Assembly (NCBI GenBank): GCA_038049695.1
Contig: CP142451.1
Coordinates: 41,427,001-41,491,000 of the forward strand
Direction: 5' to 3'
DNA from: Cinnamomum chago
Lineage: Eukaryota > Streptophyta > Magnoliopsida > Laurales > Lauraceae
Length of the DNA stretch: 64,000 nt
Position numbers and translations under genes: made by a program. Every line of letters begins with the position of its first letter. Positions within the stretch are counted from its first letter, which is position 1. Below, piece by piece: positions 487 to 60,229 of this stretch. The notes under the pieces are model-generated. The model worked only from the letters and a program-made list of their open reading frames with translations, was not told the DNA's origin and searched no databases.

Positions 487-576
487 GTCCGATCGATCGG
501 ACCTACAGGCCGATCGATCGGCCTGTCTTTTAACAGTAAGGCTTTTTGGGCCGATCGATCGGCCGATCGATCGGAC
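487..576. repeat. Palindrome cluster, CGATCGATCG type
   Basis: Four perfect copies of the self-complementary 10-mer CGATCGATCG lie at 490-499, 511-520, 552-561 and 564-573, the last two almost back to back. Flanking GG/CC extends the symmetry. The LTR 3780-7760 has a GTCGAC cluster at the equivalent site instead. Confidence 0.9.
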
Positions 577-1984
577 CCTATGCATTTCTGGTACAGAAAT
601 TTCGGTGAAATTTGATATTGTGTTTTTTTTTGGAAACCTTTGGGCTTTCTATGAGTCCTAGGGGTATATACCTTAGTGTTAAGACCAATTATACCCTAAT
701 CTAAGGTCTCTAAGACTCGGGAACTAAAAGAAAAGAATGGTGTTGATTAGACACTAATTCTTGGTTTTAGGTGGGACCCTGACTACCCTTTTTGGACTGT
801 TTGGACCATGTGTGAGAATGTCTTGAGCCGACACGCCTCACGGTTGGTTCGGTGGCATCGAAGTTCAATCCATTTCAATCTTGAACGGGATGGAATGACG
901 CGATATCTTCTTTATATCTAAACACAAGTCTATTTCCTTGTTATCGCTAATTTTATTCCTTTCGATGACTGAATCGGTTGCTCGATGTTTCCGGATTAAT
1001 GTCATGCCTAGGACGGACCGTTTATAAGCTTGATTCTTGCTATTGTAACATCTAGTACTACCCATAAGCTCATTTTAAGTTTTGAAAGTAGTAAAAGTGC
1101 ATAAGGAGCCCGGAATGTCTTCAAACTCAAGGAGTACCAAGTAATTGTTATAATCGACATACGGGACCCCTATTCACTTAAATAGATCTTGAAACCGATA
1201 TTTTTACCCGAAATTGTTATAGTTCATTGTTTCACCTCTTTTCCCGAGATTTGCATTACATGACTTGTTTTCCCGAAAGCATTGGAGTTACTCTAGTAAC
1301 AGTCATTTGTCCCGAAGTGCATTGCATCACATGATATGACAGTGTGCCCTTGAGCACCCCGTTTTACCAGTTTATTTATTGTACTTGATTTACTTGTTTC
1401 CCGAAAGCATTGAAGTTACACTAGTAACAGTTATTTGTCCCGAAATGTATTGCCCGATATGAAGTGACAGTGTGCCCTTGAGCACCCCCGTTTTACCCGT
1501 TTATTTACTGTACTCGAATTACTTGCATATGTCTCGATTGGTTTTTGACCTATGAGTCGGCATCACTAAGCTTGGATACCTTGTCGGTTTGATCCACCGA
1601 CTTGGAAATCCCTCTCTCGTCCCGCCAGCTGCAGTTTGGATCCCGATACCCGGTTATTACCGTGGTCCCGTCCCGATACCCGGTTCGCTACCGTGGTCCC
1701 GTTCCCGTATATTTATATTGTATATATGATTTACGTTGAGTCTCCTCACCTTGTGTGACTGAGACCAACGTCCCGTTATACTCTTGTCACTTCGGTGATA
1801 GAGGACTTAGCTTCTTGTGATTGCCATCTTGTCAGTTCCCGATTCCTTGGATACCCGACCTGTTTTATATTGCTTACTTGCTTTCCGATAAATGATTCGT
1901 TTCCTTTATGAAAGTTGTTATTTAAACAAGTGTTAATATTCTCCAATGTAAATTCAGTTATTATTATATTGCCTTCTGTTCTTG

Positions 1985-2660
1985 GTACCCGCACATGTTT
2001 TAAATGAATGCCGGTTGGGCGAATACCCATGCTTTTACTTATGTTTCACACGATCGATGGTTTTACTAGATTTATGTGATTTCACATGTTTTTAATGATT
2101 ACCCGATTCGTTAAATACCCATGCTTTTACATATGTTTCAAACGATCAATGATTTTGCTAGATTTATATGATTACACATGTTTTAAAGGAATACCCGAAT
2201 TGTTAAATATCCGAGCTTGCTTTAAAGGACATTTGGTTTGTCAGATATCTATGTTTGTACCTATTTTTAAATGATACCCGATTTGTTAAATATCCATGCT
2301 TTGAAATATGTTTTAAATGACACTTGTTTACCAGATCCCTACGTTTATACCTGTTTTAAACGATATCCGGTTTGTTAAATATCCGCATTTCTACATAGGT
2401 TTCAAATGGACATTGGTTTTGCTAGACTACTATGAATACCTGGTTTGTTGTATACTTGTGTTTTTACTTAAGTTTTAAATGAACGTTGTTTTGCCATACC
2501 GCTATGTTCATACATGTTTTAGACGAACACCCGAATGTCAAATATCTATGATTATAGATGATGTAAACGAACACATGTTTTATTAGATATTCATGTTTTA
2601 CCCATGCTTGAAATGATTACAGATTTTTCCCCGAGATTCCCGACTTTGCACCCGTTTAAT
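1985..2660 (+). repeat. Degenerate 55-60 bp tandem array inside the LTR
   Basis: Repeated units contain ATGTTTTAAATGA, ACCCGATTTGTTAAATA and TCCATGCTT in the same order, with many substitutions. Between shared flanks the array spans about 680 bp here and about 535 bp in the LTR at 3780-7760, so copy number differs between the two LTRs. Confidence 0.75.
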
Positions 2661-3779: not shown

Positions 3780-5330
3780 TGTGAGAACCCGACCCCTAAT
3801 TTCCTGGTTTAGTGTTGTTTTATTGTGGATTAGTTTCTTTTAATGGGATTAGTATTTGTTGGGTTGAGTTTGTGAGCTAGAATGGTTTTTCTCTAGTTTT
3901 GGGGAATTTTGAGTGCCTTTGTAATTAGTGGGACCCTTTGGGGGTTCTTTTAGTGACTTTGCGCGTGATTGGGAGGTTATTCGAAATTCCCGATAATTCT
4001 TTTTTTAGTATCATTTGACTTATTTTGTTAACCTCTACAACTTTCGTGTTCACTCCGTACCCATTCGAAGCTCCGAAAATCAGTTTTTCCAGCCCTGAGG
4101 GCAAAATCGGTCTTTTCACATTAAATCTGGACCCAAATTTCGAGATCTCAGAACCATGCCAAAATTATACTTTTTGAAAACTAGATTTTATGAGAAGCAT
4201 TTTTCTCTTCTTCGTCGATCGCATCCGAGGCCCAAAAATAGATGTTTTACCCTTAGCAAGTTTTAAGTGTAGTAGGGCCCACACCCACCCATTATAAAAT
4301 ATGACTCCACCATCTCTTTCTCCCTCATTTTTCCACTCTCCATCTTTTCCACTCTCCAGCTACAGTACCAGCAGCCATCCTTCTTCTTTTCTTCCATTTC
4401 TCTTGCTCTAATGGAGCCTCCAAGCCACCAATCCGACGAGGGAACTCCGGCAACTTCTTCCCCTTCACCTCCTCTCTTGTTTGACATCATTTTCGTGGGA
4501 GGCCAAGGTGGGCAGCCCCTACTGCAAGCTTCTTCTTGTTGATTCATGACCCTAGAGGTAAAGACTCCTTCCCATTTTCCTTTGATGTGCAATGGCTTTC
4601 CCTTAGGTTCTATTCCCTAGTTTTGTTTGAGCTCATTCATTGTCTTTCATTGTTTAACCCATTTTAGGGTTTGTTTTGGGGTTTTTGTAGAGATTGTTGA
4701 TCTTGAGCTTGAGAGGTGTTTAGAGGCTAGGTTTGCTAGCTTGGAACCCAAGGCAAGTGGATGAATGGATGGTTTGAATGTTATCAAGTTTTATGAGAAA
4801 ATCCTAAATGTTTATTACTTGTTCTTGGTAATTTGATACATGTTTTCACATATGTTTCTTGCCACATTTCTAGTGATTTCGAAATGCATATTAATGGGCT
4901 TTCCTCTCTTGTTAAATCTCTTGGAAATGTATGCATTTCATTTGGTCAAAGTTTGTTCATATGGTTTTATAAGGAATGGGGTTGGTTTGGTCATTCATGT
5001 TTATGTTTATTAGTTGCATTGATTTGAAATAGATGCTCATTTAAAGAGTTTTGCTAAATCATCTATTGTTATGGAAATGTGATCAATAGTCTTTACTTAT
5101 CTCTAGATTTTGGCTCAAATGGACCTTTGAATAAGTTGGAGATTCTTCTCTTGTTTGGTGTTAAATGGGAAGAAGGAGGTGTTTAGATTTACTTTTCATT
5201 GGAGTTTTGATGAGTGTTTTAAGTGATTGTGGAAGAAATTTGTGTAGTTGTATACGTGTTGGAAGGAGGGAAAAAGAGGAGGACCAGGCCACTGCAGAAC
5301 AGAACCTGGGTTCTGTTCCGCAGTGTGCCG

Positions 5331-5478
5331 GGTCGACCTGGCAGGGGCCAGGTCGACCTGGGACACACTGACGAAATTTCTGGGACCAATTTAAGTTACA
5401 ACTCCCAGTCGACCTGGCCATGGCCGGTCGACCGGGCACATAGAGGCCAGGTCTACCGGGCCTAAGCCAGGTCGACCG
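5331..5478. repeat. Palindrome cluster, GTCGAC type
   Basis: Perfect GTCGAC hexamers at 5332-5337, 5352-5357, 5408-5413, 5427-5432 and 5471-5476, plus GTCTAC at 5451-5456. Most sit in the longer context CCRGGTCGACCKGG. A CCACTGCAG motif precedes the cluster at about 5289. This replaces the CGATCGATCG cluster of the sister LTR at 1-3276. Confidence 0.92.
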
Positions 5479-6629
5479 GCCTAACTGAGAAACCCCTGCT
5501 GGAATGCATTTTTAACCCTATTTTGGATGGGTTTAGGTGGGACCTTGGCTACCGTATTTGGACTCATTTGACTATATGTGAGGATGTCTTGAGCCGACGT
5601 TCTTCACGGTTAGTTCGGTCGCATCGGAATCCAATCCATTTCAATCTTGAACGGTGTGGGATAACGCGATATCCTTCCTATATCTATACGCGAGGTTTAT
5701 TTCCTTGGTTATCGCGAATCCTATCCCTTTCGGTGACTGAGTAGGTTGTACGATGCTTCCGGATTAACGTCATGCCTAGGATGGACTGTTTATAGTCTTG
5801 ACTTTTCTATCATAGTATCTAGTACTATCCATAAGCTCATTTTAAGTTTTGAAAATCATAAAGTGCATAAGGAGCCCGGAATGTCTTCAAATTCAAGGAG
5901 TACCAAGTAAATATAATAATCAACATACGGGACCCCTATTCACTTAAATAGATCTTGAAACCTATATTTTTCCCGAAATTGTAATAGTTCATTGTTTCAC
6001 CTCATTTCCAAGATTCGCATTTCATGACTTGTTTTCCCGAAAGCATTGAAGTTACACTAGTCACAGTTATTTGTCCCGAAATGTATTACCCGACATGAAA
6101 CGACAGTGTGCCCTTGCGCACCCCCGTCCTGCTCGTTTATTTATTGTACTTGATTTACTTGCATATGTCTTGATTTGTTATTTGACCTATGAGTCGGCAT
6201 CACTAAGCTTGGATAACCTTGTCGGTTTGATCCACCGACTTGGAGATTCCCCTCCCGTCCCACCAGCTGCAGTTTGGATCCCGATACCCGGTTTATTACC
6301 ATGGTCCCATCCCGATACCCGGTTAGCTACCGTGGTCCCGTCCCATATATTTATATTGTATATATGATTTGCGTTGAGTCTCCTCACCTTGTGTGACTGA
6401 GACCAACGTCCCGTTATACTCTTGTCACTTCGGTGATAGAGGACTTAGCTTTTTATGATTGCCATCTTGCCAGTTCCCGATTCCTTGGATACCCGACATG
6501 TTTATATTGCTTATTTGTTTTTCCGATAAATGATTCATTTCCTTTATGAAAGTTATTATTTAAACAAGTGTTAATGTTCTCCAAGGTAAATTCAGTTATT
6601 ATTATATTGTTTCTCGTTCTTTGTACACG

Positions 6630-9772: not shown

Positions 9773-10084
9773 GATGTGTGAAATTCCACACATAACGTTA
9801 ACCACATTTCCAACATCACATTCTTTGTTTTCCCCCCTTTTTTCCTTTGTGCTTAAGGCTTATCTAGATGAACTGGGTTGATTAAGGCCATATGACCTTC
9901 AAAAGAAATGGAAAAACAAATTTCCTTTTCAGTTAATTCATCGTTCCTTCCCTTATTATCCAGTGTTTATATACAGTTTACCTCTTAAAACCTTTATTTA
10001 GTGCTAGCTGTGTGCCATTTGCCAAGAGCACTATGTTTTTTAGATTTTCTTTGGATCTTCCAACTAAGTTCCGGAATGTGGCAG

Positions 10085-10335
10085 TTGAACAAAGAAACGA
10101 AGGATGGAAATGTTGCAGAGAAGATTGTTGTTTATCAGCATGCCAACAAAGAGGTAACGATTCTGCTTGCATAACCATTTCAACTTCAATGATTGTTTTG
10201 GGTGGAACCTATATTCAGCTTTGTCGGGTTTCTTTTCGTTTGCAGGTTGCCATCATTTGCAATCATCAACGCAGTGTTTCCAAGTCCCACAGTGCGCAAA
10301 TGTCGAGGCTGGGTGAGAAAATGGATGAGCTGAAG
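10085..10335 (+). CDS. DNA topoisomerase I-like gene fragment, two exons
   Basis: Exon 10085-10153, preceded by a TTCCGGAATGTGGCAG acceptor, reads LNKETKDGNVAEKIVVYQ then HANKE, and is followed by a GTAACG donor. After a 92-bp intron with a TTTGCAG acceptor, exon 10246-10335 reads VAIICNHQRSVSKSHSAQ then MSRLGEKMDELK, with donor GTAGGA at 10336. This is the segment of eukaryotic type IB topoisomerase (nuclear swivelase that relaxes supercoils by transient single-strand nicking) between the catalytic core and the C-terminal domain that holds the active-site tyrosine. The reading frame is open across the junction. No catalytic residues fall in these exons. Neither the upstream core nor the downstream exons were found in the window; the gypsy element at 10561 lies 225 bp beyond the last donor. 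It is either part of a real gene with very long introns or a stranded gene fragment. Confidence 0.75.
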
Positions 10336-10879
10336 GTAGGATTCATTACATATCTCATAGTGTCACAGTGTACCACTCACACACATGTTGCATCTCACCC
10401 AAGCTCCCTGCAGAGCTCTCTCTACAAGAAGACCTCTCTCATCTCCTCTCCTCACTGCCAATCCAAAACCCCCTCTCTTTTCCCACCATAAATCCAGACT
10501 CTCCTCTTCCAACAACACCCCAAAGACCACTTTGAATTTGGTGTCCATCTCCATGCACCCTGTAACATCCCGAATTTCCAAGGATGTAATTAGCTCAGTT
10601 AATTGTGTTTTTAGCTAATTAAGCTCGTTATAAGCCAACCAGGTCCGATTAATCTTTAGGGTTGCGCGTGCGAAATTGGGTTGAGATCCGAGCCCGTTTG
10701 GGTACAGTAGGGGTGTGTGTCGTTATTTCCGGAAAGTTTCGAGGGCTTTTTAGTATTTTCCGCTTTTCGAGATTTTGGCACCATCGGGTAGATTACCTAA
10801 TTTCCCGGATTTTATTCTTCTGTTGCATCTCGATCCGGACCCTCGAACCCGACCCAAAACGTGACCGGGCCCAAACCCA

Positions 10880-11720
10880 TTACTTTCTCTCTCCTCATTT
10901 CTCTCTCTCTCTCTCTCCTCACTCATTTTCTCCTCTCCCCTCACTCCACGTGCATGGATAGCGGCCCCCCCTCTCTTTATTCTTTCCTTCCTTCTCCCTT
11001 ATCTTCATTTCCCTCCTCTTCTCATTCACTCCACACAGCAGCCCCCACCTCCATTTCTCTCATCTCTCGTTCTCCCTCCCCCTCTGTTTCTCTCTTCTCT
11101 CTCGTTCTCTCCATCTCACTCTCATCACCGCCGCCGGACGACGTCGCCACCGGCCACAATCACCAAGCTCTCTCCCTCCTCCACCCTCTCATCTCATCAC
11201 TCATTTCTCTCAATCATCTCTCCCTCACCCAGCCATGCTGCCCACTGTACCGGCACCATCACCGTCGCCGCCGGACCCACCTGCACCACCGGCGAGCTCC
11301 CCATCTCCGGCGAACCAGCCCACTCCATCTCTCTTTGTTTTCCCCTATTTTTCCCCTTCTCTGTTCATTCCTTTCATTCTCTGTTTCTCTCTTTCATTCT
11401 TTGTTTCCTTTTCTTTCTTTGTTTCTCTCTCTTACTTTGTTTCTCTCTCACTCCCTTGCTGCCAACGATTTTAGTCCACACCCATTTCATTCCCTCTCAT
11501 TTTCTCATCATCTCATTTCATTTTCTCTCATCTCATCTGATCTCATCTTCCATACCCATTCCACCCATCTCATTCTCTCACTCATTTCCTTTCTTTCTCT
11601 CTCTCACTTCCCTGCCAACGTGGAACACCCCCACCCACTTCCATTTTACTTTCTCTCTCTAATTCATTCTCTGTTTCCTTATCTCTCATTCTTTCTCCAC
11701 TCTTTATTTCTCTCTATCTT
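10880..11720 (+). repeat. C+T-rich low-complexity tract in the 5' LTR
   Basis: About 840 bp dominated by TCTC, TTTC and CACC words. It gives long apparent ORFs rich in Ser, Leu, Pro and His (for example 10861-11919), but three frames are open in parallel and the composition is skewed, so I do not call a protein. Position just inside the LTR suggests a promoter-proximal or leader pyrimidine tract. Confidence 0.8.
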
Positions 11721-12370
11721 CACTCTCCTCCTTGTCAATGGACCACCAAGAGCCATATCACCACTAATCAGTGGGCCACCGATCAAGTGGGCCCCACAAC
11801 CTCCGATGATCACTATCATCTCCGCGTGGACCCCGCAAGCTCAATCATCTCGAATTTGCAAGCCACCACTCCATTCCCATTTGTTTGGTAAGCTCTCATT
11901 CCCCTTAGGTTTGGGTTAACACACTTTGGGTGTAGAATTGTGTTTGGTAGCTTAGATCTTCCCCTTTTAGTAATGTTATATTTAATTTAGTTTTATTTTG
12001 TTGTTTATCCCTTAGGCTTGGTTTGTTGGACTATGGAGCTAGGATTTGTGGATTTGTGCACTTTCAACCAAAGGCAAGTAAATAGCTATATTAATACTGG
12101 ATATGTTTGCCCTCCTTGCTTTGTATGAGAAAATCATGTTCTAGATTGTAATGGCTCAATTGATACCTTAGATGATTGAAAACATGATAAAATGGTTTAT
12201 AGATTGAATGAAATGGATTTAGAGTTTGATGAGGTGATTAGTATGTTTTATGGATTGTAATTGAGGTATTTTCCTTCCTCCATATGTTGCTTATATTGTC
12301 CAAGAAACAAGAAATGGAAAGAGTTCCATTTCAGCCCAGAACAGGGCCTGTACCCAATTCCCGCAGGCCA

Positions 12371-12403
12371 GCCGGTCGACCGGGCAAGCAGGGGCAGATC
12401 GAC
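12371..12403. repeat. Palindrome module, GTCGAC type (reduced)
   Basis: One perfect GTCGAC (12375-12380, in GCCGGTCGACCGGGC) and one degenerate GATCGAC near 12397. A CTGCAG follows at about 12412. The module lies between CATTTCAGCCCAGAACAGGG and the CTTCTGTGAAGGG block. Confidence 0.85.
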
Positions 12404-13985
12404 CGGGCCTCCTGCAGATTTCCTTCTGTGAAGGGATTTTTACCCAATTGTGAAGTGGACTTTGATGGAACCTTGGTTACCCATTTGTGGACTCATTAGA
12501 CTTATTGTGAGGACGTCTTGAGCCGACGTTCATCACTGTTGATCCGGTTGTATCGGGATCCAACCTAGTTCAATCTTGAATGGTATGGGACAACGGGATA
12601 CTCTTCTTTAAATCTATGCACGAAGATTGTTCGTCCGAGTATCGCGAACCCTAACCCCTTCGTTGACTGAATAGGTTGTGCGATACTTTAGGGTTGACAC
12701 TTTACTTAGGATTGGATTGTTTATTCGCTTTGATTCCGAATGGTACCTTCGGGTACTATCTTCTACATGTGATGAGCATGTTCTTTAGTTCTATTTGCTT
12801 TGCTTTATTAGATGATCCCTTTGATGAACTTAGAAGATGAACATAGGATCCCTTTGATGTTCCGTTTGTTCCAAAGTATGATCGAAGTGTGTGGCTAGAC
12901 GGCTTTGATTATGAAAGCTTGTCGAGAACTACCTATGAAGTATGAAGAAGTTTGATATTGTTAAGTAAGATATGATGATGGAAGGTAGTTCCCTTTGACT
13001 GATGAATCTTGCTCACGCAGGAAAGTCTAGCCCCTCACTATTGTATGTTTAGGATTCTTGCGTCAGGCATCACTCAGCTGTTAACGCCCAACACTTTTGG
13101 GGCACCAATTGTGTGAGGACTTTGAAATGAACGTCTGCACAGTACGATTTTTTATATTTTAGATGGATGTACACCATCAGATACCCGTTCTGAAAGAAGT
13201 ATGATGTTTGATTTTGTTTATTTTGTTTTGAGGGTATCATATGACTGCTTGCCGGGTTTTCATCCCGAGCCTATTGCTTTACTCTACCACAGCTCTCATA
13301 TTGAGCTAGGAGGGTCAAGTGGAACTATCCCGTGGTGATTAGCAATGTGATTTGCCTATTTGATAGAAGTGTGTTAGTTGATTTTATGATTCTTATGCTA
13401 TGCGTTTACTACAGTTATAACGCTATGCATCTCTTACGATATGGTCTATTCGTATATTCTTTAGTACTGCATATTTATGGTGATTTATATATCTATCTTC
13501 TTGCCAGCCATTGTGTTGATGATGCTACTCTTGGTGCATAGGTACCGGGTACATCTACCTTTGGGAAAGTGGAGGAGTCGCTTCAGGCAGTTTAGCCTGA
13601 TGGTGAGTACGAGTTGTGTGTCGACGGTATTGTCGTCATGACCAGCACACGAGTGCCTTCATACTTTGGTTAGTTCGTATTTATTCGCTTTTGGCTTAGG
13701 TTTTGTTAGAGGCCATTAATTAATATACTTTTGTTATCTTTTGCTAAACTAAAACTATAGAAAAGAAAGATGTGCATACTCTGAAATGTTATATTGTACC
13801 ATCTGTTTAATTATGATGTTCCGCTGTGTTTCATGGTTATCGAGGAAACATTTATACCTCACCGCGGACTTACGATCCTATGGGACATGATTAGGGCAAG
13901 TTACATTTGATTAATGTTGGAAAAAGTTTTAATTGGCCCTAATCTCACGCATAACCCCGGTAACACTTTTGGGGGCGTGACAAGT

Positions 13986-13997
13986 TGGTATCAGAGC
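13986..13997 (+). other. Primer-binding site, initiator-Met tRNA
   Basis: TGGTATCAGAGC, complementary to the 3' end of plant initiator methionine tRNA, lies 3 nt after the 5' LTR. It primes minus-strand DNA synthesis in this element class. Confidence 0.93.
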
Positions 13998-14363
13998 AGG
14001 CACGTTTTTAGAAATAAAATCTACTAGAAACAAGAGGACGCGTGTGAGAAATTCGATTCGGTAGTTGGCATCTATACTATGTATGTATGGATCCTATAGT
14101 ATTGTTTGTTAGCACATTAGGTGTTTAGTAATTTCTCCTATAGAAATGAATTTGGGGACCAAATTCCTTCTTAGTGGGGAGAGAATGTAATGTCTCATTA
14201 CCCACTGTTTGTGGTTTCAGTATCGCAAATTGTGCTAGAATAAGAGTTTCTTAGAGTTAGTTAGTTTCTTTCTTAGTTTTGTTCGAGGAGTTGCAACGGT
14301 CTTGAGGCTTTTCCAGTTCGCTGAAGTGGACTTTGTAGCAGATCTCGTTGAAGGTAGAGTTGT

Positions 14364-14466
14364 TCTCGCTATTCAGTTCTACGTTAGTGTCAGAGATTCA
14401 GAGTTTTCTCTTAGAGTTTTTCTCGCTATTCAGTTCTACGTTAGTGTCAGAGATTCAGAGTTTTCT
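14364..14466 (+). repeat. 46-bp duplication in the internal region
   Basis: Units 14364-14409 and 14421-14466 are identical by eye, each starting TCTCGCTATTCAG, separated by 11 bp. They lie where gag would be expected; no gag frame remains. Confidence 0.92.
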
Positions 14467-14504
14467 CAAGTTGTAGACTTCAGTGGAAGATTTGTTCAGG
14501 GTTT

Positions 14505-14653
14505 TCCTTCGAGTGCAAATTCGTTGGCAGAGTTGATCAGGTAAGTTGTGCTTTTGTATGGTTAGACAAGTGTGAGATTTCCTTCGAGTGCAAATTCGTT
14601 GGCAGAGTTGATCAGGTAAGTTGTGCTTTTGTGTGGTAAGACATGTGCGAGAT
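14505..14653 (+). repeat. 74-75 bp direct tandem duplication
   Basis: Units 14505-14578 and 14579-14653 are adjacent, both starting TTCCTTCGAGTGCAAAT, with a few differences in the last third. Confidence 0.9.
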
Positions 14654-14797
14654 AAGTCTTGAGGAAGAAATTTGGCTTCAGATATTATCGACAGTTTTGT
14701 GATGTTTCAGGAGTTAGATTGAGATTGTATAGTTGCAAGTGGCAAATGTTGAAGTTTGTAAGACAAGAGAAGCCTATGTACTAGAGTTATTTCAGTT

Positions 14798-15778
14798 TTG
14801 AGATCAAACAGGTTGATTCGAAGTAGGTGTGAAGGTTATGATGTACCTATGATATGTGAATTCCCGGATGTCTTTCCGGAGGAGATACCTGGATTACCAC
14901 CGGTTAGGGAGAATGACTTCACGATTGAGCTCAAGCAAGGGACATCACCGATTTCGAAGGCTCCTTATCGTATGGCTCCAACAGAGCTAAGAGAATTGAA
15001 AGCTCAATTGCAAGATCTTTTGGATAGAGGATTTGTGAGACCCAGTGTATCACCGTGGGGTGCACCGGTTCTCTTTGTGAAGAAGAATGATGGATCAATG
15101 CGTATGTGCATAGACTACAGGCAGCTGAATAAGGTTACGATCAAGAACAAGTATCCCTTACCCAGGATAGACGAGTTGTTTGATCAGTTGCAGGGAGCAC
15201 AACATTTCTCCAAGATAGATTTGAGATCAGGTTATCACCAGATAAGAGTCAGGGATGAAGATGTGCAGAAAACAGCCTTCAGGACTAGATATGGACATTA
15301 TGAGTTCTTGGTTATGCCATTTGGGCTGACCAACGCGCCAAAAGTATTTATGGCCTTGATGAACAGAATCTTTACACCATGCTTAGATAAGTTCACAGTT
15401 GTATTCATAGACGATGTCCTAGTCTATTCGAAGTCCAGAGATGAACATGCAGAGCATTTGAGGAGTTCATTGCAGATTTTTAGGGAGAATCAGCTCTATG
15501 CTAAACTTAGTAAATGTGAGTTTTGGCTAGAGCAAGTGTCTTTGCTTGGACACATCATCTCTAAGGAGGGATTGACAGTAGATCCAGCGTCAGTGGAAGC
15601 AGTGGTCAGTTGGGAAAAGCTGAAGACAGTGTTAGAAATCAGAAGTTTCTTAAATGGACATGATATTACAAATAGTTGTGAAGGAATTTTCTACATTTGC
15701 AGCCAATTGATCAAGTTGACAAGGGAAGATGTTTGTTGGTATGGTCAGGGCAGTGTGAGATCAGTTTCAAGCAGTTGA
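14798..15778 (+). pseudogene. Ty3/gypsy reverse transcriptase remnant
   Basis: Open frame of 326 residues. Residues about 20-260 hold the retroelement RT fold: [15 protein letters not shown], then [19 protein letters not shown], then [40 protein letters not shown] and the catalytic box FIDDVLVYS (usually YIDD in this group). [13 protein letters not shown] marks the end of RT. After about residue 270 the frame no longer matches the RT-RNase H linker and ends, so it is truncated. The N-terminal [16 protein letters not shown] is the usual protease-RT junction of Tekay/Del chromoviruses; the protease itself is missing. RT normally copies element RNA into DNA in cytoplasmic particles. This copy has an intact DD pair but lacks RNase H, integrase and gag, so alone it could not support transposition. 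Confidence 0.92.
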
Positions 15779-15814
15779 AGTAGAGATTGATTATAGATTG
15801 TGTTGATTAGAAAG

Positions 15815-16070
15815 ACAGTTTTGTGAATTTTACTTGTGTTTTAGGAATTTTATCGAGATTGGTGCTGATGCAGAATGGGAAAAAGATAACGACCTATGGG
15901 TCCAAATAGTTGAAAGAGCACGAAAAGAGATACATTGACCATGACTTGGAGATTGCAGCAGTTGTCTTAGCTTTAGAGATGTGGATGCACTCATTGTATT
16001 GGGAGAAATTTGAACTCAGATCATAGAAACCTACAGTACTTGTTTTGCAGAAGGATTTAAACTTGAGACA
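15815..16070 (+). pseudogene. RNase H domain remnant of the gypsy element
   Basis: Discontinuous frames read VLMQNGKKITTYGSK, then LKEHEKRYIDHDLEIAAV followed by VLALEMWMHSLY and EKFELRS. These match the RNase H region that follows RT in Ty3/gypsy polyproteins. In-frame stops (after GSK and after LRS) disable it. The remaining 0.5 kb to the 3' LTR has no recognisable integrase; it contains a short repeat around 16355-16415 (TGTTATGTCAGACARAGTTT twice). Confidence 0.75.
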
Positions 16071-16570
16071 ACAGAGGCAGATGTATTGAGCAGAGATATC
16101 ATCTAGTGGGTGATTGATACTACGTCACGATGAGAGTAGATATTTTGGGCAGAATCAAGGATAGTCAGAGAAATGACCTAGAGTTGGTCCAATGATAGAG
16201 AAGATTGCAAACAGGTCCGAAGCAAACAGGCCAGAGTTCAGACTCGTGGAAGGTGTGTTATTTTGTCAGAGCATTTTGCGTGTCAGTTGTACACGAGGAA
16301 TCACTACTGACGAGATAGTATGAAGACAAAGATAGTAGGGTTTGTGTCAGATGTTTGTTATGTCAGACAAAGTTTCGAAGTTGTGGGGTTGTTATGTCAG
16401 ACAGAGTTTCGAAGTTGTGAGCAGATTGTGAGTCAGATTGCAAGCAGCTTGAGCACTATCCAGAATTTCACCGCAGCTTGCCACCTTCAGACTTTAGAGA
16501 TAGAGTTTTGTTAGAATAACCAAATCTTTTACCTGTGATAGATTTAGTCATTTGGAGGACCAAATGTTCT

Positions 16571-16583
16571 AAGGAGGGAAGGA
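16571..16583 (+). other. Polypurine tract
   Basis: AAGGAGGGAAGGA directly abuts the 3' LTR start at 16584, the expected priming site for plus-strand DNA. Confidence 0.88.
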
Positions 16584-16904
16584 TGTAACATCCCGAATTT
16601 CCAAGGATGTAATTAGCTCGGTTAATTGTGTTTTTAGCTAATTAAGCTCGTTATAAGCCAACCAGGTCCGATTAATCTTTAGGGTTGCGCGTGCGAAATT
16701 GGGTTGAGATCCGAGCCCGTTTGGGTACAATAGGGGTGTGTGTCGTTATTTCCAGAAAGTTTCGAGGGCTTTTTAATATTTTCCGCTTTTCGAGATTTTG
16801 GCACCATCGGATAGATTACCTAATTTCCCGGATTTTATTGTTCTGTTGCATCTCGATCCGGACCCTCGAACCCGACCCAAAACGTGACCGGGCCCAAACC
16901 CATT

Positions 16905-18402: not shown

Positions 18403-18424
18403 GTCGACCGGGCAAGCAGAGGCA
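18403..18424. repeat. Palindrome module, GTCGAC type (reduced), 3' LTR copy
   Basis: GTCGAC at 18403-18408 and a degenerate ATCGAC nearby, matching the 5' LTR module. Confidence 0.85.
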
Positions 18425-34687: not shown

Positions 34688-34689
34688 AT

Positions 34690-35849: not shown

Positions 35850-35975
35850 GTCGACCGGCGCAGAGGTCCCGGTCGACCGGGAACACTGCAAGGCAGAAAG
35901 TTGTCCTGGCGCCCCAACGGTCAGAAATTTGACCGTTGTGTGGTCCCGGTCGACCGAGACCTCTTTGCCGGTCGA
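35850..35975. repeat. Palindrome cluster, GTCGAC type, in copia solo LTR
   Basis: GTCGAC at 35850-35855, 35872-35877 and 35949-35954, each inside CCGGTCGACCG, plus GTCGAT at 35971. The hairpin CAACGGTCA ... TGACCGTTG (35915-35938) lies between the second and third, as in the sister LTRs. CACTGCAG at 35834 precedes it. Confidence 0.92.
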
Positions 35976-43463: not shown

Positions 43464-44901
43464 AAGCAATAACCTTTACAAGGCTAAGCAATAACCTTTA
43501 CAATGTGCTTTTCTTAGGCTAAGCAATAACATTTACAATAAAAAGATTTCTCTTAAAGAAGTGTCTACACAAACACTCAAAGAGATACAATTAAAGCTCA
43601 ATTACAATGCCTCTTAATTAGGCGGACATGAAAGTGAAAAACTAACTCACACAAACACTAAATGAATGCAAAGGTGTATGCTCATGATGTGTGTGTGTGA
43701 TTACTTCAATCAAGTAAAAAACAAAGCTCAATTAATATATGCTCAAAGCATTTAAAAGTTGAAGGCACATAAAAGATTTTGATTGAAGTGAAATGCAAAT
43801 CACATGTATGGATACAAACTTGTTAATGATATGAAAATCAAAGGCTCACAAGTTGTATGAAATTAATTAGCTCTAAACATGTGATGCATGTGCAATGTTG
43901 ATTTCAAAACTAAACAAATTTAACTAAAGTTCAAATGAATGAAAACAACAAATGAAGATTCAACGAAGTAAAAGAATCATGCTATAAAAGAAAACAAAGA
44001 TTTTGTCTAAGCATGATTAAGGACGATTTTAAAACAACTTAGATTGAAATCAAAAGTGAAGAATCCAATCTAACTTAGATCAAAGATTAAAAGAAGAATG
44101 GATTCAATACATCATAGTTACAATGCTAAAATTCATTTACCAATAATTTAAACAAAGCATATAGCATATGATTAAGAAAGGTAAAGCTTACTTAGAGATT
44201 TAACTTTATTAATCCAAGCTTTAGCTCTCCAAATGACCCTTTGGTCCCTCGGAGTTCATCCCCTCTATCTTGTCTCCATACACCTCAAGGATGGCTTAAA
44301 AATCTCTACATTTGGCAAAGGAATGAACTTCATTTTATAGCAAAAAACTGCCCAACGGCTAGATCCCGATCGACCTGGAACAGGGCCCGGTCGACCTAGC
44401 CTTCAACGGTCATAAAACTGACCGTTTGAAAAGAGCACAATGGCTCTTTACCCAGTCGACCCGCAGTGGGCTCGGTCGACCGGGTCCCTTGGGCCGGTCG
44501 ATCGACCACACTGCGGGTTGACCGAGGCCTGGGACCAAATTCCCCTAAAATTGCATATTATAAAGAGATTTCTTGAGGAAACTTTTGGGACCACTGAATC
44601 AAGCTTGGAATCATGTTTTAAATGAAACTAAGAGGTTTAAAAACATGAAACATAAAAAGCCTAAAAGGATTTGAAAGATTTAAAACATACGCTAGCTTTA
44701 TTTCTAAAACTTCTTTTCAAATTAAATTGCATCCAAGTATAAAATCAAAACATGCATAAATCAACATTTTTACAAGTCTTAAAAACAATGCATGTATAAA
44801 TCAAGATTTGAAGATTTTCTAAATTAATGCATGTGTGAAAATTCAACTGATGATAAAATGATAATGCATCCATCAAATTGCAATACACAAAATCCCTAAG
44901 A
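43464..44901 (-). mobile_element. 5' LTR of the Sirevirus-like element, distal part with GTCGAC module
   Basis: Continues the LTR broken at 35004. It aligns base for base with most of 28200-29604. It ends CCCTAAGA where the sister LTR has CCCTAACA, a terminal mutation, and is followed by TSD GTAGA (44902-44906). The module at 44370-44510 has GTCGAC at 44390-44395, 44455-44460 and 44475-44480 plus ATCGACC variants. The conserved AACGGTCA/TGACCGTT hairpin is at about 44405-44426. Confidence 0.92.
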
Positions 44902-46426: not shown

Positions 46427-48868
46427 TGTCACTTCCCCAAAATAAGAATTGGGTAAAAAGGTGAAAATTTTAATCATTTAATACAACACAAGCTTCCAAA
46501 GGTGGACCCACAAACTTTCACAACCCATGGTGAGTCAAACTAAATTTCATTAAATGCAACAGAAGCTTTATTCAATTGGTATTCAAAGTTCATAAATGTA
46601 ACCCAACATAATCATCAGATGAAGGAATAATAGTTAAAGTTGCAAAATAAATCAAACAATTACTAAAAAAAAGTTTATCATTCACGAAAGTTCATCTAAA
46701 GAAGTTCTAAGATGACGTTCTCTCTCATGCAGGCTCAGTCGGCTCCAAAGTCATCATCGGCATTCCACTCGGGTTCGTCAGTTGGCTCAGACGTTTAAAA
46801 CGTTTGATCCTCCTCTGTCTCCTCGGTAAAGTAGGGTTCGGTACCTGTGCACCAAATATTACAAAGTAAATAGCAAGAACATGATCATAATTCGAAATTA
46901 AATACAATAACAAGATGAATATAGACAAGTGAGATAATATAGAAATAATGACAATGATAATGACAAGAAAGAACATATAACATAATCCAAATAAAACAAA
47001 AGGAGAAAAATGATTCACACAAAGACATGTGCCCTCGTTGTAGGTGGTTAGCCCTAAATAAATTAGGAGAGCCCGTCCATAATGTCAGTGGTCATAAATT
47101 GATCAAATTAAAAATCAGGATAACCTGTTCACATTAAAAGCGGATTATAAGTGATCCGGTCACATCGGTAGTCAACCGTCCATATATCGATCTGCAGTCG
47201 TCCATAAATGACCCACATAAACATATAAGCATAATAGACCCGAATAATAAAGCTCTGACACAAGAGTCCTAAGTCAAAGTGAAGTGCTGGCCATTCCACA
47301 TTACATATCATAATCAAATCATCATATATAATTTGCGAAGCCACTTCATAGTCCATAACACACAATTGGGTATGCATCTATAGGAATACATATCCTAAAC
47401 CAACATATATATGCATGCGAAGGTCAAGACATTGATACGGATCGATCCTAAGGTTAGACATACATTCATATACATGTTAGCACACAATAGTAACCAATAG
47501 TGAGCTAAGGACGTTACATCTTTCGAGATTCATGGTGCATAGATCCAATGAAGGATTCCAATAGAGATGTATTGACCCTTTCTTACTAGAGTTCATTAAA
47601 ATCATAACAGGTATTTGAATCCTACGTCCATAAGATACCGTATGCCCAAATACAGTTCTTATGTCAGGTCCAAGTAGATATTTAAGGTTATTCAATCCCA
47701 CACATGATACCATAATTCCCCAAGCGATACTGAGCCAAAACAGTGCAAAAGGATCATAAGTGGCCCAAGTGCACCGAATGTTCGAACTTTCAAGGTCTCA
47801 GACTTTTGGCTCAGAAACAAAGAATCCCAAACATTTGAACCTTCATGAGGCACTTTGAACGTTTGGTTTCTCTGCCTTTTGGCCTAGAAATCTTAGACTC
47901 GCGCTTTCAAACGTTCAATGACAACGTTCGAACGTGCGGCATCAGAATATTGGTCGAGTTCGTACAGACACAAAAATTTGGGGTTTTTCCTCTTTTCATC
48001 CATTTTCTTCCCTTTACCAAAAGGGAGTTCCAATCTAACCATAATCTGTACCAATCACATTCCATTAGAAAAATGATGGAATTTGCATTTTCATTACCCA
48101 AATACCAATAACCCAAATATCCATTTCAAATCCCTAATCTACCATTATCATTTAGAAAAGGGCAATTAAACAAATCTATATGCATTAGATAGGAATCAAA
48201 GATCAAAACACATATTTAATATCAAATCATGATAATGTACTTGCCTTTCATCGAGGTTTGAAGAAAAGTGCAACAGATCCTAACCAATACCCAAACTGAG
48301 ATTACCACGGCGCTCGATCACAAACCTAACACCAATCTGACATAGAAGATGGAATAAGGATGTTTAGATGAACAGATCTATGGTATTCATTTCCAAAACC
48401 TAACATTAGAAAGATTAAGAAATATAACCTAAGAGTACAGATCTACTCTTAGTGGTTTGAGGAGAGAGTTACATGTGATAAGAAAGTTAAACTAAGAATG
48501 ATGGTATCTTTAGATCTTGATTCTGATGGCTGGATCCTAAAGTTGCAAAGACCTGGCAAGTTGAAAGATGAAGAAGACGAAAAAGAAACGGGAGGAGTTG
48601 CAGAGATAACTGGGGAGAGATAAGGACGTGCGGTTATTAAAACTAGGGATTCGGTTAAAAGGGAATATTCCTTGAGCTTAAGTTATTGGGTCAAATTACT
48701 GGTCAAATCACCTACCCATTAACCCAACTCACCAAACCACGCATCTAATCTAACGTGTGCGTCACTTAATCCTAACCACTTAAATAACTAAAATACATTT
48801 AATTAAAATAATAGTAATATTCTGACTAAAATATAATAATTAAATAGTAATGGGACTGGGATCTTACA
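46427..48868 (-). mobile_element. Ty3/gypsy solo LTR, 2442 bp
   Basis: Plus-strand ends TGTCACTTCCCC and GGACTGGGATCTTACA. Flanks AGTTT (46422-46426) and AATTT (48869-48873) form a TSD with one mismatch. Structure and termini follow the other minus-strand gypsy LTRs. Contains an AACGTT/TTCGAA module. Confidence 0.85.
47781..47932. repeat. Palindrome cluster, AACGTT/TTCGAA type
   Basis: TTCGAA at 47781-47786 and 47927-47932; AACGTT at 47858-47863, 47910-47915 and 47923-47928. Degenerate AACATTTGAAC and CTTTGAACGTTTGG occur between. It sits where the sister LTRs have GCTAGC or CTCGAG clusters. Confidence 0.85.
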
Positions 48869-50162: not shown

Positions 50163-51686
50163 AGAATTGTCACATTCCAGACCCGAAATTACCTGGCCAA
50201 AGGTAATTCCCGAGGTGTGCCACGCGTACTCCGGTGCTCATCACACCTGTTTCGGGTCAAGTGTGAGGCACGAAGGAGAAAATCCACTTTGCATGTGTGA
50301 GACATGCTCACAGACACTTGTTTCTGTACATTTATCAGTGGAAGCATTAATCACAACATATAAGCGTATCAAATCATGAGCCATCTAAACATTCAAGAGT
50401 ATTAAACAAAAGCTAATTTCATTTCTATTAAGAAGTAGAGAATTAAAACTTACTCTACCTCAATAATACAAAAGTATTTATATACATCAAATACCAAAAG
50501 TAAGTTTAGTTTGTTTCTATACACTGATAATCCATTAACCAAAAGTATACTATTTGCAAAAGATGTTGTGTAACGCTCTCGGGAAACACGAGCTAGACAG
50601 CTCCCTCGGCCGTCCATTCTTCTATCCCTAGAGGTACCTCAACAGCCTCCTCCTCTCCCTCCGTGGTCTCCTCAAGACCGAGATTGGGATCTGCGTCTGT
50701 AACACCAAGAATAACTAGTGAATACAACGATTCAGCTGAGTATTAGCAGTAATTCTTTTACAGATGTTATATCAATTCAAAATTAACGACAATAGATTGA
50801 AATAGATCATATGATAGTATACTAGGCAATTGTGCAGTTGAATTCGTCACCCCTGACGAATCAATAATAATTGAACCATGTACAATCTAGTTGGCAACCA
50901 CATTAGCTAAATCCCCTCATTGAGGGCTCACATTGTGGGATGTCACTAGTGACCTGGCCAAAGGTTTAACTGGCCACCCGGTTCTGGAGTTCTGGTGCTC
51001 CAGACAGTCTACTGCGCAGAGACGTTCACAATTTAAACCAAGAGTCAACCCCATCGGGTATTGTCCGGTCGAAGCTAAGTAGTGCTGACTCATTTAAATC
51101 AATAACACACTGAACTTGAGTAGACACACTAATCACTTCACACTATACAAATTCACTCCTTTAAAGTAAATCTACTCAAGACTTTCAAGTTAATAATAAT
51201 ATGACAATTTGAGCTGAAATACAAGATAAATACAAGCTAGACTTAGGAACACTAATTTAGTGTATGAAATCATGAATATAATAGCAAGATGCTCATGCAT
51301 TGAAGTTGAAGAGTCAATGATTCTTACTAACCAAAACTAATCCAAAATCAATAGTCATCCCTTATCTCATCCGGTGTAGGTTTAGGAAATTTAATGTTTT
51401 GTTATTCATCTCAGGTGTTACTGTAATGCAGGTACATTATACTTCCTAAATCCACACCCAGGAATAACATTTGTGAGCTATATTCATCCATTGGACATAT
51501 AAGGAATTAGTTAAGGTTCATTTCTATGGTCCTACATGGTCCACCAAAACTTAGAACCCTATTAGATTCCCTGGTGTACCATGATTATCTTCGAATGATA
51601 GTCATGGAGGTCCCACATTGGTGTTAGGATAGATTTATCCTTTAATTCTAGGTGGTAAAGTGTCCATGACATAGCAATCAGGTTCA

Positions 51687-51837
51687 CTCGAGAGGACGAC
51701 CAACCGCTCGAGCGCATGCTTCACAGAGGCCAATCCTCTCAAGCGAGGGACTATGCGCTCGAGCAGAGGGTTTAGAATGCAATTTTATCAGAATTCCAGA
51801 GAGTTGTTCGCTCGAGCGATGGTCCACTTCGCTCGAG
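51687..51837. repeat. Palindrome cluster, CTCGAG type
   Basis: CTCGAG at 51687-51692, 51707-51712, 51758-51763, 51811-51816 and 51832-51837. Most are extended to GCTCGAGC or TTCGCTCGAGCGA. Confidence 0.93.
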
Positions 51838-51981
51838 CGAACACTCAATTTTTTACATTTCGAACACCTGAATCTTCTCAGTTTATTTGAGATTTCTGAA
51901 TTACTTTACATCCTTCACTAGCCTCCAAACTCTTACTTTCAAACACCTACAGACTCATACACATTACCCACTCCAATGTAA

Positions 51982-56935: not shown

Positions 56936-57440
56936 TTTGTGCAGTGAGTGTAGGAGTGAAGGAGGAAGAAGAGAGAAGAGGAGGGAAGAAACAAAGAGAG
57001 AACGGGCAGAGAGAGAGAGGGTGCGGGCTGAGAGAAAGGAGCGAGTGAGGGTGAAAGAGAGAGAGAGAGGGAGAGTAGAAGAGAGAGAGTGGCAGAGAGA
57101 GAGATGGGTGCGCAGGTGAGGAGAAAGAGAGAAGAAACAGGAAGAGAGCAAGGAAAGTGAGGTGAGGAGAAGAAAAAAAAAAGAAGGGGAAAAAGGAAGA
57201 GAAGGAAGAAGTGGAAAGGAAAAGAAAGGGAAAGAAAACAGTGAAGGGGTGTGTGTACTGGTGAGTGGGGGGAAAGAGAAGGGAAGAGAGGAGAGAGAAG
57301 GAAGAAGATGAGGCAGTGTGTGCGCAGGGGGAAGAGATGTAGGGAGGAAGAAAGTGGGGAGAGAGAGAGGAGAGGGCAGAGAGGGTGAGGAATGAGAACA
57401 AGAGATAGATGGGAAGCGAGAGAGATGAGAGCAGAGAGGA
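56936..57440. repeat. GA-rich low-complexity tract, left half
   Basis: Almost pure purine on the plus strand (GAGAGAGA, GGAAGAAG words). It is continuous with 60235-60725 once the solo LTR 57441-60229 and one TSD copy are removed. Apparent Ser/Leu-rich and Arg/Glu-rich ORFs on both strands are composition artefacts. Confidence 0.85.
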
Positions 57441-60229
57441 TGTAACACCCCGCCCCCTAATGGGCTATTAATTACAATTAATTGTGTGATTAGTTAGTAA
57501 GCTTGATTAGCGTCTAAGTAGTTAGGGTTAACGACGAATCGCGAGTGCAAAGTCTCGCACTATTCGGAGCGCGTTTGGGTAGGATAGAGAGTCGTTTAGT
57601 TATTTGGGTAGGGTTTCAGGGAATTTATGAGATTATGAGTTTTGGTGAGTTGGGTGCATTGGGTAGGTTTCGTCATTTCATGAACTTTAGCCTTCGGTCG
57701 CGTTTTGATTCGACGCGTCGAAGAGACCCGAAATCCATTAATTGAACATATAGGCCGACCCGGAACTTGACCCATCAACCAAAGCCCAAAGCCCAAGCCC
57801 ATGATCCATTACTTAAAGTATCTTACCAACCCACCCAACACTTATCTTCATTTCATTCAATTCCATTCACTCAACTACAACCACCATAGAACAGTAACCG
57901 ACTCTTCTTCTCCTCCTCTCTTCCTTTCATTCCTTTTTCTCCGTTGACGAGCACCGGAGCTCCGGCGAAGGAAACCAAGCCAACCATCATCTTCCTCAAG
58001 CCTTCAAGAGTCCAACCATACACTTTTCTAAGTGTTTCACCCACAACCCATTTAAAGGTAAGCTTTCAAAGCTTGGAAACCTAGTCATCATCTTCTTCCT
58101 TGGTTAGAAATGGTTTAGGGAGATCCACCTTGACCTTTGGCATGCACTTGTAGGAGCATATTGGGTTTGGAGAGTTGTCTCAACCTTTGGAGCTTCTTAG
58201 AGTTGTGTTTCTCCAAGTTTCTTCTTGATTTGAGTCTAGCACATCATAAAGGCAAGTCAATAGCTATATTATTGCTTGATATGTTTGTTTACCTTGATTT
58301 GGATGCTTAAATCATGTGTTAGATCATCTTGGTTCAATTGATACATTAATAGATTGAAAACATGATAAAATGGGTTATAGATTGAATGGAATGGATTTAG
58401 AGATTAATGGCTTGATTAGTAGTTTTATAGATTGTAATTAAGTTATTTTTCTTCCTACATATACTGCTTATCAGGTCCAAGAAGAAAGAAATGGAAAGAG
58501 TTCCATTTCAGCCCAGAACAGGGCCTGCACTCAGTTCCCGCAGGCCAGCCGGTCGACCGGGCAAGCAGGGACAGGTCGACCTGGCAGCAGGGGCGGGTCG
58601 ACCGGGCCTTCTGCAGAATCTTGCTGAATTCCTTCTGTGAAGGGATTTTTACCCCATTGTTGGGTGGACCTTGGTGGAACCTTGGATACCCTTTTGTGGA
58701 CTCATTTGACTTATCGTGAGGACGTCTTGAGCCGACGTTCGTCACTGTTGATTCGGTTGCATCGGGATTCAACCTAGTCCAATCTTGAATAGTATGGGAC
58801 AACGGGATACTCTTCTTTAAATCTATGCACGAAGATTGTTCGTCCAAGTATCGCGAATCCTAACCCCTTCGTTGACTGAATAGGTTGTGTGATGCTTCAG
58901 GGTTGACACTTTACTTAGGATTGGATTGTTTATTCGCTTTGATTCCGAATGGTACCCTCGAGTACTATCTTCTACATGTGAAGAGCATGTTCTTTAGTTC
59001 TGTTGGTTTTGCCTTATTAGAGGATTTCTTTGAGAACTTAGAGGTTGGATTTAGGATCCCTTTGTGGTTTCGTTTGTTTCGATATTCGTTTGAAGTGTTG
59101 AGGCTAGGGAGCTTTGATTGTCAGGCTTAAAGAGGACTACTATTGATATTTGTTTGGGATTTGATTTGATTTGGAATAAAGTAGTTCTCTATTGTTATTG
59201 AATCTTGTTCGCGCAAGAAGCCTAGCCCTTCACCGATGTTTTAGGACTCTTTGTGTCAGACACCACTCAGCTGTTAACGTTCAACACAGTTGGGGCACCG
59301 ACTGTGGGAGAACCCGATACTACCTCGAAGCAAGATAGAGCCAGAGCTCACGGAGCCCGAGCTACTTGAGCTAAGAGTTATTTATTCCTCGAGATGTTTG
59401 TTTTGTTTTGAAGCAAGATAGAGCCAGAGCTCACGGAGCCCGAGCTACTTGAGCTAATTCGTCCTCGAGCAAGACAGTGCCAGAGCTCTCGGCGCCGGAG
59501 TACTTGAGCTACGAGTTGTTTGGATATTGGATATTGGGTTTTATCCCACTTGATGATATATATTAGCATATGTGGATCGCCTACTTTGATACTTGTTTAT
59601 GATTCGAATGCACTGCATCTCTTCCGATCAGAGTGTTATGCATACCTTATGATTATGGTTATCGTTCATTCTCTTTAGTACTGCATATCTATGTGATTTA
59701 TATACCTATTGCTTTTCCATCCGTTGTGTTGATGATGCTACTCTTGGTGCATAGGTACCGAGCTCTACTACCCCGAGGCGGAGGAGACGACGAAAGAAGT
59801 TTAGGCAGATCAGCCTGATGACTTCCTAGAGTATAGTACGGACGACATTGTATAGCCGTGATGACCCCGTACACGAGAGCTTCACGATTATCCTCCTAGC
59901 TCCATCTTTTGGTTTCTTAATACTTTTGTTTAGGCCTAGTTTTAGTTTGGCCTTTTTACATGTAATTAATATGTTGTGTACAGTCTTAAACTTTAACCCT
60001 AACTTTGATATTCAGTATATTGCTCATAAACTATACATCTATAAGATACCTCTTGTTTTATGAAGCTTCCGCTATTGTTTAAATATTTGAGGAAATGTTT
60101 ATACCTCACAGCGGTCTTTGATCCAAATGGGACACGATTAGGGTAAGTGATATGTTATTATCATTGGAAAAGTTTTAAATTGGCCCTAATCTCACGCATA
60201 ACCCCGGTTTCACTTTTGGGGGCGTGACA
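57441..60229 (+). mobile_element. Ty3/gypsy Tekay-like solo LTR, 2789 bp
   Basis: Starts TGTAACACCCCGCC and ends GGGGGCGTGACA; perfect TSD GAGGA (57436-57440 and 60230-60234). It shares long blocks with LTR 10561-13982 (for example CATTTCAGCCCAGAACAGGG and CGTCTTGAGCCGACG) but lacks that LTR's C+T-rich tract and is 0.6 kb shorter. Three copies of an about 50-bp unit (GCAAGATAGAGCCAGAGCTC) start near 59330, 59411 and 59469. Confidence 0.94.
58552..58602. repeat. Palindrome cluster, GTCGAC type
   Basis: GTCGAC at 58552-58557, 58575-58580 and 58597-58602, spaced 23 and 22 bp, followed by CTGCAG at about 58612. The related LTRs at 10561 and 16584 have only one perfect copy at this site. Confidence 0.92.

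Follow-up and report, generated by a model that had tools for sequence, protein, structure and literature searches.

Palindrome arrays in the window

The locus examined here is a window of 64,000 nucleotides of the Cinnamomum chago genome (GCA_038049695.1, contig CP142451.1, positions 41,427,001 to 41,491,000), in which long terminal repeats (LTRs) of gypsy (Del/Tekay-type) and copia (Sirevirus-type) retrotransposons carry compact arrays of short palindromes. A preliminary description of the sequence had placed such palindromes in at least ten LTRs, and direct reading of all the stretches that it listed bore this out, with 12 arrays counted in the window. The arrays lie in LTR sequence, a location that is firm for most of them and least sure for G and H. 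They are, in order of position:

486-575, plus strand: array A, 4 perfect CGA-TCGA-TCG units at 490, 511, 552 and 564, in a Del/Tekay-type LTR that ends at 3276
5326-5484, plus strand: array B, 6 CGG-TCGA-CCG-type units at 5330-5469, 1 perfect, in the sister LTR of A, which ends at 7760
12372-12420, plus strand: array C5, 2 CGG-TCGA-CCG-type units, 1 perfect, in the left LTR of element C
18400-18448, plus strand: array C3, twin of C5, in the right LTR of element C
29069-29232, minus strand: array cop1, 5 CGG-TCGA-CCG-type units, 0 perfect, with TATAAAA 26 bp downstream on the minus strand
35847-35980, plus strand: array cop3, 4 CGG-TCGA-CCG-type units at 35848, 35870, 35947 and 35969, 3 perfect, with TATAAAT 26 bp downstream
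38878-39350, minus strand: array E, CGC-TCGA-GCG at 38880 and 38902, plus CGG-TTAG/CTAG-CCG units
41290-41600, minus strand: array F, CGG-CTAG/TTAG-CCG units, with 7 of 9 gaps being 11 or 22-23 bp, and no TCGA
44366-44530, minus strand: array cop2, twin of cop1, with TATAAAA 26 bp downstream
47779-47935, minus strand (inferred from a weak LTR match): array G, weak, CGT-TCGA-ACG at 47925 and two imperfect units
51685-51842, tentatively minus strand: array H, 6 CGC-TCGA-GCG-type units, 3 perfect, in sequence whose kinship to the LTRs is not established (E = 4)
58548-58606, plus strand: array D, 3 CGG-TCGA-CCG-type units at 58550, 58573 and 58595, 1 perfect

The content of some arrays differs in part from what had been described. 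The GCTAGC palindromes of E and F exist as CTAG-type units, but most of these are CGGTTAGCCG-like and imperfect, and E, which had been entered under separate palindromes, carries both motif types, CTCGAG and CTAG/TTAG. The hexamer CTGCAG, which had been said to lie near GTCGAC, adjoins or falls within B, C5, C3, D, cop1 and cop3, to be compared with 18 CTGCAG in the whole window. Array G is weak, as it has 1 perfect unit, 2 units with two mismatches and a best folding z-score of only -2.5. Heat-shock elements (GAAnnTTC) were considered for this array and set aside, since TTC and GAA abut in the perfect unit.

A common motif with one variable base pair

The hexamers GTCGAC, CTCGAG, ATCGAT (the CGATCGATCG type) and TTCGAA all have the form NTCGAN', and their flanks extend each of them to CGN-TCGA-N'CG. 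Array A has A as its N; B, C, D and the copia arrays have G; H and part of E have C; and G has T. The units within one array are homogeneous in N. A fifth type, CGG-CTAG/TTAG-CCG, occurs in E and F. Thus, what had been described as a different hexamer in each subfamily is mostly one 10-mer with one variable base pair, which covers four of the five types. Perfect CGNTCGAN'CG units numbered 18, against a mean of 0.0 and a maximum of 1 in 60 simulations, and units with at most one mismatch numbered 28, against 1.9 in 60 simulations, LTR twins being included in both counts. N and N' were complementary in 18 of the 20 matches to CGNTCGANCG, and the variable pair was symmetric at 0.94 within units, as compared to 0.28 when arms were paired across arrays.

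Comparison of palindromes with randomised controls, as the preliminary description had suggested, revealed a clear excess. The controls were first-order Markov sequences in blocks of 500 or 250 nt (100 simulations), and the counts include the LTR twins C5/C3 and cop1/cop2. In 500-nt blocks, CG-containing palindromes of at least 10 nt numbered 34 against 9.5 +/- 3.0, and those of at least 12 nt numbered 20 against 2.6 +/- 1.5. In 250-nt blocks, TCGA-centred palindromes of at least 10 nt numbered 23 against 2.7 (maximum 7 in 100), and those of at least 12 nt numbered 16 against 0.74. The next centres were weaker (GATC, 12 against 5.0; CTAG, 7 against 2.6); TCGA stood out most, and TCGA centres account for the bulk of the excess among CG-containing palindromes.

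The units are also regularly spaced. Neighbouring TCGA units lay 19-24 bp apart in 18 of 27 gaps, where the null mean was 4.1 and the maximum 12 in 20,000 simulations. The best period was 10.65 bp for units with at most two mismatches (26 gaps; none of 3000 simulations as high) and 10.75 bp for those with at most one (14 gaps, P 0.0007). A spacing of ~21 bp, or two turns of the helix, fits sites on one face of the DNA. Of the 22 gaps between CTAG-type units, 17 measured 10-12 or 22-23 bp. It is to be noted that the spacing tests, like the test of unit arms described below, were run without C3 and cop2, as these are LTR twins; the TCGA spacing test further left out array F and overlapping units, and unit 38978 was also excluded from the period fit, which reduced the gaps from 27 to 26.

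The gypsy and copia LTRs

The gypsy copies of the window include the following.

10561-13982, plus strand: left LTR of gypsy element C, TGTAACATCC...GGGGGCGTGACA
13983-16583, plus strand: internal region of element C, with a Met-tRNA-type primer site TGGTATCAGAGC at 13986 and RVT_1 in the 14762-15775 frame (E 1.7e-37)
16584-20010, plus strand: right LTR of element C, 98.7% identical to the left LTR, with a target site duplication (TSD) CACCC at 10556-10560 and 20011-20015
35005-43458, minus strand: Del/Tekay-type insertion, starting TGTAAGACCC and ending GGGGTCGCGACA, TSD AGGCT, which holds arrays E and F and LTR cop3
57441-60229, plus strand: LTR D, a solo-LTR-like Del copy, starting TGTAACACCC and ending GGGGGCGTGACA, TSD GAGGA

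By their LTR ends, these copies fit the Del/Tekay lineage. The U3 attachment (att) sequence TGTAACACCC, which in sorghum and maize is the most frequent one among Del elements (PMC4029996, available text), is exact at the LTR start of D and matches in 9 of 10 bases in C and in the 35005-43458 insertion. At the other end, A, B, C5 and D conform to U5 att type A (GGG at -8 to -10; A, C, A and G at -1, -2, -3 and -6), the exceptions being C3, which differs at -3, and the ends at 39914 and 35005, which carry T at -8; no LTR end was found for G or H. Reverse transcriptase was found in element C only, whose internal region is 2.6 kb, and the Pfam RVT_1 domain is not diagnostic of lineage. When the sequences around the remaining arrays were compared by nhmmer to pieces of A-E, the E-values were 5e-19 for F, 3.8e-5 for G and 4 for H, so that kinship to A-E is supported by sequence for F and G and not established for H. 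The arrays of C, D and F sit mid-LTR in Del/Tekay-like LTRs.

The copia LTRs are these.

27819-29604, minus strand: LTR cop1, Sirevirus-type, with a polyC signal near its end
34690-35004, minus strand: distal piece of LTR cop2, which ends in CA, followed by ATTGG-TATCAGAG (primer site)
35467-37871, plus strand: LTR cop3, Sirevirus-type, with a polyC signal and CACGC flanking both sides (end and flanks by eye)
43459-44901, minus strand: proximal piece of LTR cop2, split from the distal piece by the 35005-43458 insertion (TSD AGGCT)

The copia copies carry most of the published Sirevirus landmarks tested. The Sirevirus 5' LTR junction is CA-ATTGG-TATCAGAGC, and cop2, the only 5' junction present, reads CA-ATTGG-TATCAGAGA, the final base being different. 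C-runs, characteristic of the polyC-rich integrase signal, are located near the LTR 3' end in all 3 LTRs. Sireviruses have several polypurine tracts ahead of the 3' LTR, and here five ARGGGRGA tracts were found in the last 301 nt of the internal region, as opposed to 1 on the opposite strand over all 5.1 kb, the pattern having been picked after the tracts were seen and the tracts being non-identical. In each of the three Sirevirus-type LTRs a TATA box lies 26 bp past the last unit, which places the array upstream of TATA. The repeated motif is present as 4-6 non-overlapping units per LTR at two or fewer mismatches, compared to the published criterion of at least eight per element; the internal region 29605-34689, which is decayed, had none at two or fewer mismatches. 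None of the 6 open pieces of this interior that were searched (6 of the 9 of at least 55 amino acids) gave a Pfam match, and no copia domain was found there. In the copia arrays the observed/expected CpG ratio was 0.82-1.19, and in the sequence flanking them 0.06-0.28, a contrast that is partly circular, since the arrays were chosen for a CG-bearing word.

Several other features were observed in these regions. The copies are nested, in that the Del-type insertion with TSD AGGCT splits LTR cop2 and itself contains the Sirevirus LTR cop3; two Del LTR-like ends, at 35005 and 39914, are found in the region of this insertion. Gene fragments flank element C, namely topoisomerase I at 9937-10488 (Pfam E 4.8e-07) and cytokinin dehydrogenase at 20037-20477 (E 5.8e-09). 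Further along are ~3.5 tandem copies of a 188-bp unit (22739-23419) and a zinc-binding reverse-transcriptase domain, zf-RVT, in the frame 23704-24279 (E 2.6e-18). The Sirevirus-type LTRs contain 34-35-bp tandem repeats at 28082-28241 and 37488-37620, downstream of the palindrome arrays. Lastly, a palindromic pair resembling miniature inverted-repeat transposable elements, at 24213-24423 and 37006-37216 (near-identical, at 92% or 96% depending on orientation), had the lowest folding z-scores of the window, -22.7 and -20.4.

Arrays of related LTRs

The sister gypsy LTRs A and B offered a direct comparison, as they align on either side of the array, at 74% in the upstream block and 85% downstream. 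Upstream, a 62% match extends to about 30-45 nt from the array (score 75, shuffled maximum 57); downstream of the array, A has ~160 nt unmatched to B before the matching blocks return. Despite this kinship, N is A in all four units of A and G in B. Array B can be aligned to its counterpart in D, a more distant LTR (score 66 against a shuffled maximum of 36). Array A, with shuffled maxima in parentheses, scored 32 (27) with B, 31 (22) with C and 28 (28) with D, weak matches that the shared centre alone might explain. The simplest reading of these sequences is a switch in the line of A. Array D has one unit more than C.

Predicted RNA structure

Sense-strand RNA of the arrays was folded in silico, array F being without TCGA. 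Only 1 of 42 TCGA centres was in its own hairpin loop at a probability above 0.5, and the mean pairing probability exceeded 0.5 for 40 of the 42, which places the centres in predicted stems. In a scan of the plus strand, array windows folded better than shuffled sequences, with a mean z of -3.56 as compared to -0.64 for the rest, and for 8 of the 12 arrays the best window was among the 17 lowest of 1277; the ranks of C5 (187), C3 (170), G (163) and D (65) were weaker. No Rfam family matched at gathering scores. The arm test, which left out units whose centre differs from TCGA, TTGA or TCAA, found no unit-level covariation in the outer arms (pairs 6-12), the count for pairs 6-8 being 59 of 102 against 58.6 when permuted. 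A first impression of unit-level arm covariation in array A disappeared for the outer pairs under within-array permutation.

Interpretation

We tentatively favour, with a confidence just short of even, the explanation that a host protein, sequence-specific and probably dimeric, binds the arrays at clustered sites in which one base pair can be switched. A DNA-binding protein of the plant, working as a dimer and with an activating or regulatory role, would recognise the inverted repeats CGN-TCGA-N'CG (or CGG-CTAG-CCG) of each array, and units ~21 bp apart would place neighbouring dimers on one face of the DNA, mid-LTR in the Del/Tekay LTRs. The third base pair of the motif would choose which member (or variant) of the protein family is recruited, and element families would switch this pair across all units of an array together. 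Dimeric-factor sites, which the preliminary description had listed as an alternative, fit best because the centre is fixed, the variable base pair is symmetric and the spacing is ~21 bp. The outer arms follow the array consensus without unit-by-unit covariation, as a protein site would give; together, the stem-placed centres, the non-covarying outer arms and the CpG pattern favour a protein site on DNA. That unrelated LTR groups, copia and gypsy, share an exact word that is also listed for a Vitis Sirevirus argues for the same reading, as do the excess of perfect units and the 26-bp distance to the TATA box in the three Sirevirus-type LTRs. Host factors that bind plant LTRs are indeed known, such as HSFA2 on ONSEN and WRKY on EVADE (PMC12786077, available text). 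The reading applies to one window of one genome and is drawn from sequence data.

A number of observations weigh against it. For CTAG-type units the period of best fit is 11.6 bp, and neither 10.5 nor 11 accommodates their 5 long gaps; tandem duplication accounts for part of arrays B, D and E, so that the gaps there are not all independent. TATA-like words lie 90-367 nt after A, B and G, and none was found in the 450 nt that follow C, D, E, F and H. The strong predicted RNA structure suits hairpins equally well, and arm pairs 4-5 are borderline for covariation (P 0.06). Finally, the array changes no slower than the sequence outside it in the pairs compared: 11 of 164 sites against 42 of 1262 between cop1 and cop2 (P 0.045, the array being faster), 1 of 49 against 37 of 3373 between C5 and C3, and 7 of 49 against 161 of 984 between C5 and D. 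As drift of dead copies and faster drift of CpG-rich DNA are expected, the cop1/cop2 and C5/C3 comparisons say little; the comparison of C with D, at 49 sites, is a mark against strong constraint. The preliminary description had named drift at the flank rate, with no excess of palindromes, as evidence against its claim; the drift half goes against it in the few pairs available, and the excess half is favourable.

Among the other explanations, the one that survives best, though unlikely, is that the arrays act as RNA, the units of LTR transcripts folding into hairpins that feed small-RNA silencing by the host, with host-element conflict driving fast turnover, as has been published for maize Sireviruses. 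The fold scores of the array windows agree with this, as do the small-RNA hotspots on such palindromes in maize (PMC5311732 and PMC10760457, available text). However, hairpins need neither helical phasing nor a fixed TCGA centre, the outer arms show no covariation by unit, and C5, C3, G and D fold less outstandingly; moreover, silencing explains a cost and not the retention of the motif by the elements.

Somewhat less probable is a mutational by-product, in which template switching and slippage generate and multiply palindromes that have no function, tandem duplication proceeding in steps of ~21 bp. B and D do register as tandem repeats with a period of 19-22, D has its additional unit over C, and the rate of array change is in line with such an origin. 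On the other hand, unrelated LTR groups and the Vitis Sirevirus share one 10-bp word that has CG at both ends, the other tandem repeats of the window have scattered periods, and CpGs persist in the copia arrays and not around them. Two further proposals were rejected: an unrelated satellite inserted by chance, since the arrays are inside LTRs of several families, and palindromes as insertion targets, since that work (PMC6911290, available text) concerns weak symmetry at target sites, not arrays.

It is improbable that the arrays are a CpG-island or methylation device, in which silencing would be set or escaped through dense CGs and not through the exact word, a role that has been proposed for the variable 5' CpG island of Del LTRs. 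The preliminary description had offered a CG-rich methylation or silencing target as an alternative, which is borne out in part, and the arrays are indeed CpG-rich in CpG-poor LTRs: G+C exceeds that of the flanks in 12 of 12 arrays, and the CpG observed/expected ratio is higher in 11 of 12 (B being equal, 0.73). Transitions make up 9 of the 11 cop1/cop2 array differences, as methylated CpGs would yield, the 5' CpG islands of Del are of variable length and sequence (PMC4029996, available text), and the maize hotspots cited above are of small interfering RNA. Nonetheless, CG content leaves the TCGA centre, the symmetric N:N' pair and the periodic spacing unexplained.

In LTR elements the transcript includes the 3' copy of U3, and the palindromes are present and differ between families, all of which would suit the preliminary proposal of RNA dimerisation through 6-nt palindromic loops, akin to a retroviral kissing signal; but the suggested folding put a single TCGA centre in its own loop, the copia array is upstream of the TATA box and by inference outside the 5' leader, and several units per LTR stand at DNA-helix spacing, and thus this highly improbable reading was rejected on the predicted placement of the centres.

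No autonomous copy was recognised within the window. A protein search with the LTR reading frame across array D gave 8 candidates, none of which scored, and a reverse transcriptase search of viral contigs gave 5 stretches, none a relative. Motif scans beyond the window returned no recognised plant sequence; one scan gave 39 stretches, another 6 and three none. Of the 39, the ten most unit-clustered, with 53-69% G+C, were tentatively taken for phage. One viral contig (L009, 55% G+C) contained 4 CGNTCGANCG matches within 200 nt.

Comparison with known systems

The closest known system is the repeated motif of Sireviruses (Bousios et al. 2010, PMC2829016), described in the available text as repeated palindromes of the LTR, built on a CGG-CCG core, that lie upstream of a TATA box and form CpG islands there. 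The paper lists CGGTCGACCG for a Vitis element and, in its Table 3, CCGGCTWRCCGG for a Citrus element; the former is the exact word found here, and the E and F arrays resemble the latter. That paper calls the motif Sirevirus-specific among copia, whereas here the word and its N variants fill gypsy LTRs as well; moreover, neither the ~10.7-bp phasing of the TCGA units nor a difference in the N pair between sister LTRs, as seen here, was met in its available text. Among the matches listed from open papers, no report was met of the motif in gypsy LTRs or of helical phasing.

The palindromic small-RNA hotspot region of maize Sireviruses (Bousios et al. 2016, via the available text of PMC5311732 and PMC10760457) also has palindromes that cluster in the regulatory part of the LTR, evolve fast and are predicted to be strongly structured. 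It is described for copia only and with a CACCGGACNNNGTCCGGTG-type motif, unlike the arrays here, which are known from their DNA. The plastic 5' CpG island of Del (Tekay) elements (Cruz et al. 2014, PMC4029996) is a CG-rich, variable LTR stretch in what is, by LTR ends, the same gypsy lineage; however, the term 'palindrom' is absent from the main text of that paper, and its eudicot Del elements are without the island.

Sirevirus palindromes have been known since 2010, and no identified reader protein for them was met in the available text. The same word in gypsy LTRs, combined with helix phasing and a single switchable base pair, points to a DNA-binding protein and offers a direct route to it; it would also help to explain the common host control of unrelated elements and the divergence of families in it. 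In a wider form of the binding-site explanation, which we consider unlikely, paralogous dimeric plant proteins would read CGN-TCGA-N'CG on one DNA face as a shared address code; Sirevirus and Del/Tekay would each have adopted it, changing address or escaping repression by a one-base-pair switch in all units at once. The target arrays of the VANC proteins of VANDAL elements (Hosaka et al. 2017, PMC5735166) are likewise short motifs in tandem arrays that differ between related elements. The VANC motif, YAGTATTAY, is not described as a palindrome in the available text (the term 'palindrom' is absent), and it is bound by a protein that the element encodes. This analogy suggests a still bolder form of the address code, in which the reader would be element-encoded like VANC, and the base pair would define self.

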